From Emticicia sp. BO119 (GTDB lineage: Bacteria > Bacteroidota > Bacteroidia > Cytophagales > Spirosomataceae), in contig NZ_JACETV010000002.1 of NCBI RefSeq assembly GCF_013912375.1, forward strand, positions 558,001-622,000: a stretch of 64,000 nt of DNA. Reading direction: 5' to 3'. The notes below the pieces were generated by a model, which saw only the letters and a list, made by a program, of their open reading frames with translations, did not search any database and was not told where the DNA came from. Of the stretch, positions 1 to 1,273 are shown piece by piece. Made by a program: the position numbers and the translations under genes. Each line of letters starts with the position of its first letter. Position 1 is the stretch's first letter.

Positions 1-54
1 AGGATTTGTTACTTCTTGGGTAAGTGTTCGGCTGTATTTGTTAAGAGCGGTCAT
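1..54 (-). CDS. ilvD: Dihydroxy-acid dehydratase, N-terminus only (runs off left edge)
   Basis: Only the first 18 codons lie in the window; the minus strand reads MTALNKYSRTLTQEVTNP from an ATG at 54. This matches the opening of Bacteroidota IlvD proteins (xLNKYSrTxTQdxTxPAxQAMLYGIGL, from memory). IlvD is the Fe-S dehydratase that makes 2-keto acids in valine and isoleucine synthesis. The identification rests on a short stretch, but it is supported independently by the branched-chain amino-acid leader attenuator directly upstream (about 100-213). It is probably the first gene of an ilv operon continuing to the left. Confidence 0.8.
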   Translation of the reverse strand, partial: MTALNKYSRTLTQEVTNP

Positions 55-99
55 TGTGATTTTGTGTTGTATTTAAGTCGTATAAATGCGTTTGTTCAT

Positions 100-131
100 A
101 AAAAAGCCTTCTCCACTCTGTGAAGAAGGCT
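100..131 (-). terminator. Attenuator terminator hairpin of the ilv leader
   Basis: On the minus strand AGCCTTCTTCAC (131-120) pairs with GTGGAGAAGGCT (116-105) with a single G-U pair, followed directly by a run of six U (105-100). It lies between the leader peptide and ilvD, so it acts inside the transcript as an attenuator rather than as a gene-end terminator. Confidence 0.85.
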
Positions 132-162
132 TAAGCTATGGTCGCGCGTCCTTCTTCACCTA
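100..162 (-). promoter_or_regulatory. Transcription attenuator for branched-chain amino-acid synthesis
   Basis: Just after the leader stop codon, the minus strand has segment 2, GTGAAGAAGG (159-150), perfectly complementary over 10 bases to segment 3, CCTTCTTCAC (129-120). Segment 3 is also the left arm of the terminator hairpin (131-105). The two structures exclude each other. A ribosome stalled at Val/Ile/Leu codons would leave segment 2 free and form the antiterminator; a ribosome reaching the stop codon would cover segment 2 and let the terminator form. The folding is read from the sequence; the regulatory logic is the established trp/ilv attenuation model. Confidence 0.85.
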
Positions 163-213
163 CTTATTTAGCAGGAGAATAATTGGCACGATAATGACTT
201 TATTTGGGCTCAT
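160..213 (-). CDS. ilvL: ilv leader peptide (attenuator peptide)
   Basis: A 17-codon ORF on the minus strand, ATG at 213-211 and TAG at 162-160, encodes MSPNKVIIVPIILLLNK. Nine of 17 residues are Val, Ile or Leu, in two clusters (VIIV and IILLL). It is followed at once by the antiterminator segment and then by the terminator ahead of ilvD. This is the classic layout of a branched-chain amino-acid leader peptide; the peptide itself has no other expected function. The gene symbol is by analogy with the enterobacterial leader. Confidence 0.85.
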   Translation of the reverse strand: MSPNKVIIVPIILLLNK

Positions 214-264
214 GAATAAATTTCTCTATTTGCGAATATTCGCTAAATGCGAATCATTTCTGTA

Positions 265-297
265 CAAATGTAAGCGAAACCATTTTTTAAAACCAAA
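265..297 (-). promoter_or_regulatory. Promoter of the ilv leader/ilvD transcript
   Basis: The minus strand carries TTTG at 297-294 and TACATTTG at 272-265, separated by 21 bases. This fits the Bacteroidota housekeeping promoter (-33 TTTG, -7 TAnnTTTG) exactly. Transcription would begin near 260, about 45 bases before the leader peptide ATG. Confidence 0.7.
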
Positions 298-373
298 CAT
301 TTTAGAATAAAATTTTGAAAATCATACTTTTTTGTACTTTTCTAAGGTTGCTTTATGGCAATTCTAAGACTTT

Positions 374-1273
374 TTATGCTCCCGTTATCTCTTCGTAAGT
401 GGCTTGTACACTTCTGGCAATCCCATCTCCCTGCATTTCTGTCACACCCGGAATAGCCGTCACCTTTAGAATTTCCTCTTTCGACTTGCCCGCTTTCACC
501 TCTCCGTCTACAAAATTCCATAACTTAGAAAGGTAATCCTGAAACACTTTTATATCATCTTTATTACCTGTTATTTTCTCAGGGTCAAAAGCATGACCAA
601 ATACAAATAGGGTCTGATTATCAAAAGTTTTCAATGCTTTATCTAAAACCGTAATCCAGCTTTTAACAGAAGCACCTGCCGAACGATCAACAAACGGGTA
701 GCGACGATTGAAAAGCAAATCGCCCATGTGCACTATATTGGCATTTTCAAAATGGATTAAGCTATCGCCGTTTGTATGGCCTGCACCGAAATAATGTGCT
801 TTAATCGTCTCTTTACCAACCTTTTGCTTCCAGGTATCGGTAAATGTCATGTCAGGGTACAACTGCTTGTCTTCAGTCTTGTTTTTTTCTGCAACGGCCT
901 TCTGGTTTTTTAGAGAGTTTGCATGCGCTACCACGTGTTCAGCAATACCTTTAAAAGAGATATTACCACCCGAATGGTCGCCATGATGGTGGGTGTTAAT
1001 CAATAATTGAATAGGTTTATCAGACTTCTTTTTCAATTCTCCAATCAGGTGAGTAGATTGCTCAGGAAATTGAGAGTCTACCACAGCTATGCCCGAAGGA
1101 GTAATTAAATAGGCAATAGTACCGCCTCTTTCAGTAAAAACACCAACGCCACCGCGCAAATCCTTCAATTTATAAGGGTCTTGTGCAAATAGATTGGCTA
1201 ATAATTCTTTGTTTGATAAAGTGAGGGCACCTAAAGTTAAGCCCGTAGTGTGTACAAAATTTCTACGATTCAT
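374..1273 (-). CDS. MBL-fold metallo-hydrolase, exported
   Basis: This 299-residue protein has the metallo-beta-lactamase zinc motif THHHGDH near residues 94-100 and later family histidines (GHTNGD, FGHAFDP). The N-terminus MNRRNFVHTTGLTLGAL resembles a twin-arginine signal (RRNF followed by a hydrophobic stretch), so export to the periplasm is likely. The substrate is unknown; the closest groups are the subclass B3-like and periplasmic hydrolases rather than RNases or glyoxalase II. It is on the same strand as the next MBL gene, but a 200-base palindromic repeat separates them. A real beta-lactamase activity cannot be claimed from the sequence. Confidence 0.85.
   Translation of the reverse strand: MNRRNFVHTTGLTLGALTLSNKELLANLFAQDPYKLKDLRGGVGVFTERGGTIAYLITPSGIAVVDSQFPEQSTHLIGELKKKSDKPIQLLINTHHHGDHSGGNISFKGIAEHVVAHANSLKNQKAVAEKNKTEDKQLYPDMTFTDTWKQKVGKETIKAHYFGAGHTNGDSLIHFENANIVHMGDLLFNRRYPFVDRSAGASVKSWITVLDKALKTFDNQTLFVFGHAFDPEKITGNKDDIKVFQDYLSKLWNFVDGEVKAGKSKEEILKVTAIPGVTEMQGDGIARSVQATYEEITGA

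Follow-up and report, generated by a model that had tools for sequence, protein, structure and literature searches.

A predicted ribosome-mediated attenuator upstream of ilvD in Emticicia, with similar candidate leaders in other Bacteroidota

Is expression of the ilvD gene of Emticicia sp. BO119 governed by the translation of a short peptide encoded just ahead of it? We addressed this question in a 64,000-nt stretch of the genome (hereafter the window), whose first 297 nt hold the start of ilvD and its leader on the minus strand (Table 1). Inspection of these bases bore out each of the parts that an earlier sequence-only reading had proposed, namely a promoter of the Bacteroidota type at 297–265 (TTTG-N21-TACATTTG on the minus strand), a 17-residue leader peptide with nine Val/Ile/Leu codons, which was confirmed base by base, a perfect 10-base pairing of 159–150 with 129–120 (GTGAAGAAGG against CCTTCTTCAC), and a competing terminator with its T-run (132–104, Ts at 105–100). 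Its coordinates were correct to within 1–2 bases, as was its placing of the ilvD start, with ATG at 54. Nine of the 17 residues of the peptide MSPNKVIIVPIILLLNK are Ile, Leu or Val, the 10-base antiterminator strand begins directly 3′ of the leader stop codon, and the order of promoter, leader ORF, antiterminator, terminator and ilvD fits the spacing of an attenuator. From this arrangement and the comparisons below, the ilvD leader very probably controls branched-chain amino-acid synthesis as a ribosome-mediated transcription attenuator.

Table 1. Coordinates of the ilvD leader in the window, the leuA leader, the serial leader pairs and the palindrome sites
Feature	Position	Strand	Details
Predicted promoter	265..297	-	−33 TTTG, N21 spacer, −7 TACATTTG; Bacteroidota type; read from sequence
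Dyad TTCGCATTTAGCGAA, overlapping the palindrome	239..253	-	could fold as a small 5′ hairpin in the transcript
Palindrome AGCGAATATTCGCA	231..244	-	candidate operator
Leader ORF MSPNKVIIVPIILLLNK (then stop), Val/Ile/Leu control codons	160..213	-	ATG 213-211, TAG 162-160
Antiterminator strand GTGAAGAAGG (region 2)	150..159	-	perfectly complementary to 129-120
Shared strand CCTTCTTCAC (region 3)	120..129	-	terminator 5′ arm and antiterminator 3′ side
Intrinsic terminator, regions 3 and 4	100..132	-	hairpin AAGCCTTCTTCAC-AGA-GTGGAGAAGGCTT 132-104; six Ts 105-100
ilvD start	1..54	-	ATG at 54; 559 aa, extends beyond window; heads ilv cluster
leuA leader	L174:1325-1445 (G000:C23 near 209,100)		ORF, antiterminator, strong terminator
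Serial pairs	L051:1620-1880, L054:1628-1905, L074:2711-2970, L083:2531-2790, L093:1683-1950		upstream of ilvD or ilvE-ilvD
Palindrome TAGCGAAWWTTCGCTA sites	window 244-231		minus strand
Palindrome TAGCGAAWWTTCGCTA sites, others	G000:C1:1566442, G000:C1:118210, L147, L167, L168		

We infer leader translation, ribosome stalling, termination and the response to amino acids from this layout, and the switch would work as follows. Transcription starts are spaced a few nt from the −7 box; here transcription would begin a few nt past it, and a ribosome would then translate the leader of 17 codons. A scarcity of charged tRNA for Ile, Leu or Val would stall the ribosome at codons 6–15, leaving GTGAAGAAGG (159–150) free to pair with CCTTCTTCAC (129–120), and this pairing would block the terminator and let RNA polymerase proceed into ilvD. 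If charged tRNAs were plentiful, the ribosome would reach the stop codon, where its front edge would cover just 159–150, the 132–104 hairpin would fold, and transcription would stop. The front edge of the E. coli ribosome lies about 10 nt past the stop codon, and a ribosome holding that codon in its A site would lie over the antiterminator strand. A regulator bound at 244–231 would likely add a second layer of control.

The leader DNA was matched in all 11 genomes of the genus that were examined, the window's own included, and in every one of them the leader ORF, terminator and antiterminator are present, with 8–11 Ile, Leu or Val within 12 residues. Loss of both the ORF and the pairing in relatives, which the sequence-only reading had named as grounds for giving it up, is not what we find, as all 11 genomes keep both. 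The constraint follows the reading frame: across codons 6–16 of the 11 genomes, Ile, Leu and Val account for 98 of 121 residues in frame 0, compared with 23 in frame +1 and 9 in frame +2. All 11 leaders have Leu at codons 14 and 15, and codons 2–5 drift. Upstream, the −33 TTTG is invariant across the alignment of the 11 leaders, and the promoter motif TTTG-N-TAnnTTTG is found in its strict form in four of 11 rows and in a looser form in 10 of 11.

To gauge how often such a combination arises by chance, we used a scanner that calls an ORF of 8–45 codons with at least eight Ile, Leu or Val in 12 residues and a terminator no more than 70 nt past its stop. It fires at the ilvD leader and on only one of 631 other 400-nt tiles of the window, that one lacking an antiterminator. 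When the 400 nt preceding ilvD were shuffled 1000 times with dinucleotides preserved, it made no call. The 176-nt leader is also more stable than expected (folding z = −4.9), with none of 200 shuffles equally stable.

Folding models were computed for leaders with a ribosome placed either at a stall or at the stop codon. With the ribosome stalled, the model has at least 8 nt of the terminator 5′ arm paired upstream ahead of synthesis of the 3′ arm at all 26 loci modelled. For the window, 10 of 13 arm nt were paired at −17.3 kcal/mol in the stalled state, compared with 0 of 13 at −1.1 kcal/mol once the ribosome is at the stop codon. In the latter state the predicted upstream pairing is lost or weakened across the loci, although 10 of the 26 still pair 6–10 arm nt upstream, at −2.4 to −9.2 kcal/mol. 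Folding without a ribosome also pairs the window arm upstream (10 of 13 nt). Once the RNA is complete, 46 of 52 stalled states, both window states included, have the terminator as their predicted minimum, and because the complete RNA thus favours the terminator, antitermination would have to be kinetic. A possible protector (1:2) pairing of the leader ORF with the antiterminator strand can be drawn at 23 of 23 loci, but with a mean of 0.77 versus 0.66 in shuffles. At seven of the 23 loci no more than three of 60 shuffles scored as high; the window, with 25 of 60, is not among them.

An ilvD match was found in 192 of 200 genomes of the family, and we hand-picked 40 loci from its other genera. 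Fifteen of these carry the ORF and terminator, and 11 of the 15 also have the antiterminator by the script's rule. The scanner made no call at 25 of the 40, nor at the nine named loci closest to the window's family (L019–L026 and L046), which means that even near relatives do not all have the device. In the family loci that possess it, strand order is constant and the antiterminator strand begins from −6 to +5 nt of the end of the stop codon. The antiterminator sequence itself varies, with CCTTCTTCAC, CCTTTCTCAC and CCTCACTCAC types that have matching partners on both sides, and the terminator 3′ arm changes at the same columns as the antiterminator pairs.

We measured this covariation on 21 distinct rows, obtained from 28 after dropping six duplicates and L015, whose register was shifted by one; L122, with its ORF set by hand, and L132 are among the 28 though outside the 15 family positives. 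Changes on both sides of a pair were seen in 32 cells compared with 10.4 in shuffles, and the covariation score was 0.357 compared with 0.187, none of 500 shuffles scoring as high in either case. The register used for each antiterminator strand was the one that paired best, a choice that favours pairing; the paired cells came to 83.7%, compared with 74.9% in shuffles, a share that none of 500 reached. Seven of 12 pairs had a both-sided change (4.8 in shuffles, 8 of 500 as high), and sliding the register yields no more than nine both-sided cells. The number of further pair types did not exceed that of shuffles in the 21 rows (149 of 500), and two columns are unpaired in nine of the 21. When shuffles could likewise be set at their best register, no more than five of 500 paired as well at 22 of the 28 loci and 9 to 46 of 500 at the other six; for the window antiterminator none of 500 did. 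Judged from these alignments, the predicted antiterminator and terminator, which are mutually exclusive helices, covary, and the attenuator interpretation of the sequence-only reading gains from both observations, that the 11 genus genomes keep ORF and pairing and that pairs change on both sides elsewhere. The comparisons show the parts, their conservation, the covariation of the exclusive helices and the geometry.

Four loci of the family genus g13 (L102–L105) have ilvD with neither an attenuator call nor the palindrome described below, and with a promoter motif beginning 54–64 nt before the start codon. Their genomes are small, about 2–3 Mb, and therefore a loss of attenuator and palindrome is possible.

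We then considered ilvD loci from further afield, taking the 80 best matches to the window's IlvD in named records, among which the closest relatives come from a Cytophagaceae MAG, Runella, Lacihabitans, Fibrella, Spirosoma and Dyadobacter, which puts the organism in the Spirosomaceae or a neighbouring family. At least one leader lies upstream on the ilvD strand in 42 of the 80, of which two are doubtful (L027, with the terminator 1 nt past the stop, and L067, where a DUF1697 gene intervenes); one call fell elsewhere in the same DNA. The antiterminator rule holds at 25 of the 42. These leaders stand directly before ilvD or, nearly always where a gene intervenes, before a gene for a class-IV aminotransferase, which is ilvE in L035 (TIGR01122), has an Aminotran_4 match in L035 and L051, and was assigned in the others by sequence likeness only. 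Going by record titles, some of which look doubtful for MAGs, the positive loci belong to Flavobacterium, Chryseobacterium, Elizabethkingia, Tenacibaculum, Lutibacter, Pedobacter, Chitinophaga, Sediminibacterium, Chryseolinea, Saprospiraceae and an Ignavibacteriae MAG. Because the 80 loci are the best matches to the window's own protein, we also drew an even sample of the phylum, in which 75 of 99 genomes have an ilvD match and 41 places outside the window's own genome, in 40 genomes, score above 590 bits. Within the 2 kb upstream of each of these 41 places (places below 450 bits being left out), leaders were found at 15, seven of them with an antiterminator by the rule, and no leader was called on the opposite strand of the 41. 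The attenuator interpretation of the sequence-only reading is supported, though not as an isolated example; the leader appears instead as one of a phylum-wide set.

At eight loci, two leader-terminator units stand in series, about 127–165 nt apart: L051, L054, L074, L083 and L093, and L209, L217 and L229. Both units have an antiterminator by the rule in L054, L093 and L229. Among the first five loci, only L051 and L054 show a promoter motif ahead of the first unit, and no such motif turned up between the two units at any of them. Separately, several leader peptides have Gly-rich tails (PGG, GGG and similar; L060, L064, L078, L079, L035, L036, L085 and L098), the loci being from Chitinophaga, Segetibacter, Sediminibacterium, Chitinophagaceae and unplaced MAGs. 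In L060, L078 and L079 the antiterminator strand starts within the leader ORF.

A twin of the ilvD leader was found in the same genome before leuA (NF002086, above cut-off). It has a TTG start, five Leu codons (...AISLLLLLSFTV) and a strong terminator, and its TGA stop sits within the antiterminator strand. ORF and terminator are kept in all 11 genus genomes, and the script places an antiterminator at the stop codon in 10, L185 being the exception; 10 of the 11 have an unbroken run of five Leu, and L188 has Ile plus four Leu. Before the other amino-acid genes scanned in this genome, hisG, trpE and two other HMGL-family genes, the scanner made no call. Neither this leader nor the palindrome at 244–231 was part of the sequence-only reading.

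The palindrome, AGCGAAWWTTCGCT, sits about 20–35 nt past the −7 box and is probably an operator. Within two mismatches it is present in 11 of 11 genus loci, 29 of 40 family loci and eight of the 80 named ilvD loci, whose records are all of Spirosoma, Fibrella, Dyadobacter, Runella or Lacihabitans, and the copy at 244–231 is the only match in the 64-kb window. The form TAGCGAAWWTTCGC was found in nine of 10 genomes searched, and all nine have a copy ahead of ilvD. Its places in a genome are few, compared with 0 or 1 per strand for the reversed control. In the window's own genome (G000) and in G002 such sites precede a gltB-like glutamine-amidotransferase gene and a POT peptide transporter gene, both assigned in G002 by sequence likeness only, and in G059, G011 and G015 palindrome sites lie between malate synthase and an HTH/IrrE-like regulator with a distant RamB match, far below cut-off. 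The gene for this regulator, divergent from malate synthase, is a first candidate for the protein that binds the palindrome. Some further sites have no assigned gene, among them one in the window's own genome at G000:C1:464083. The TAGCGAAWWTTCGCTA sites together form a candidate regulon, and from the genes beside them it looks as if the palindrome's regulator governs the supply of nitrogen and carbon, while the attenuator would be a second layer specific to amino acids. The leaders of the gltB-like and peptide-transporter genes, considered as further attenuators, contain no hairpin scoring above 14. As for the dyad that overlaps the palindrome, TTCGCATTTAGCGAA is present in 11 of 11 genus leaders; TTCGCN5GCGAA was rejected as a genome-wide operator, its three places in the genome equalling the reversed control.

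The presence of this site raises the possibility that a regulator bound at 244–231 is the sole control of ilvD and that the leader is a relic. The palindrome is indeed more widespread in the family sample than the ORF with terminator (29 versus 15 of 40 loci), and several ilvD loci that have no attenuator carry promoter and palindrome immediately before the gene. A relic, however, would not be expected to show the clear codon and pairing constraint seen here, and the two elements are compatible, both being present in 11 of 11 genus genomes; we consider sole control by the palindrome very unlikely. Attenuation at the leader is also to be preferred over the notion that the hairpin is a mere terminator of the upstream metallo-beta-lactamase-fold gene (1273–374), with the ORF and the complementary strand accidental. 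That gene has the same orientation, and its end lies about 240 nt before the hairpin, but a conserved promoter-like stretch separates the two. All 11 genus genomes keep the ORF, antiterminator and terminator jointly, with conserved codons and pairs, and 42 of the 80 named loci again have an ORF and terminator ahead of ilvD or ilvE-ilvD; these observations leave the explanation with very little to recommend it. Equally hard to credit is control of the terminator by an RNA that binds a metabolite or a tRNA (a riboswitch or T-box), which would fit the terminator and antiterminator taken alone, but the conserved part preceding the antiterminator is a reading frame, and Rfam gave nothing at threshold in the window or in 12 related loci. 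For the families of Rfam 15, which include leaders, T-boxes and riboswitches, the count above gathering score was 0 in the window and 0 in the 12 loci, and the best matches in window 1–400 were two weak ones to unrelated families (E = 2.1 and 4.9); a riboswitch or known RNA family at the leader was rejected on this absence.

The putative attenuator precedes its cognate biosynthetic operon. On the same strand the order is ilvD (PF00920; TIGR00110 above cut-off), a gene for an FkbM-type methyltransferase, ilvB (an acetolactate-synthase-type TPP enzyme), ilvN (its small subunit), a PDDEXK_3 gene, ilvC (ketol-acid reductoisomerase) and ilvA (threonine dehydratase), the names ilvB, ilvN, ilvC and ilvA being inferred from family matches. 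In E. coli, the ilvBN, ilvGMEDA, leu and trp operons have leader attenuators. Like these, the window has a short control-codon ORF, mutually exclusive antiterminator and terminator and a cognate operon downstream; unlike them, it has a different sequence, a Bacteroidota promoter, a palindrome in the initially transcribed region and a protector hairpin that is at most tentative. Within Bacteroidota, the Bacteroid-trp motif (RF01692), which by its name we take to be linked to tryptophan, has no Rfam match in the window. That motif is listed for Bacteroidetes, with 'y' for RNA and 'y' for cis-regulatory (PMC2864571). The Corynebacterium ilvB-II uORF, ilvB-OMG and Leptospira ilvB motifs each have a uORF rich in branched-chain codons before an ilv gene, with a terminator and antiterminator predicted for ilvB-II; they appear to be independent motifs of the same logic, their first gene being ilvB where here it is ilvD, and the term 'bacteroid' does not occur in the main text of that source (PMC10272879). 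Short ORFs in long 5′ UTRs are reported for Bacteroides thetaiotaomicron, where the example given precedes a hypothetical protein gene, in contrast to the branched-chain operon here (PMC7366714). By title and opening abstract, the open-licence literature yielded no paper on branched-chain leader attenuators in Bacteroidota, and we do not claim their absence from print. Vitreschak 2004 and Lopatovskaya 2010 may include such attenuators.

The mechanism as predicted is thus classical, and what is new is its apparent spread across the phylum, lacking an Rfam match where tested, and the putative serial pairs; this spread, the serial pairs and the palindrome add interest beyond a classical attenuator. 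On balance we lean towards a phylum-wide set of ribosome-stalling attenuators before ilvD, ilvE-ilvD and leuA in Bacteroidota, serial pairs included, together with, in the window's family, an undescribed TAGCGAAWWTTCGCTA regulon comprising ilvD, a gltB-like gene, a peptide transporter and malate synthase. The leader ORFs are probably missing from most annotations, since they are short and the 13 sources searched (the window and 12 related loci) gave no Rfam match, and serial attenuator pairs would, as far as we know, be an uncommon architecture. Ribosome-mediated attenuation needs the leading ribosome to keep pace with RNA polymerase; such transcription-translation coupling is established in E. 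coli and has been reported absent in Bacillus subtilis, and Bacteroidota hardly use Shine-Dalgarno sites. If attenuation is truly phylum-wide, tight coupling would be required in Bacteroidota, and the set would offer a ready test of that coupling and a handle on amino-acid control.

Two further observations concern the surroundings of the leader. The genes for the FkbM methyltransferase (L003:15365-14634) and the PDDEXK_3 protein (L003:11882-11487) both lie within the ilv cluster. Upstream of the metallo-beta-lactamase-fold gene, the window contains an inverted repeat, CGCCGCCGCGGCTGATT ... AATCAGCCGCGGCGGCG (1500-1484 with 1371-1355), that is GC-rich amid AT-rich sequence.
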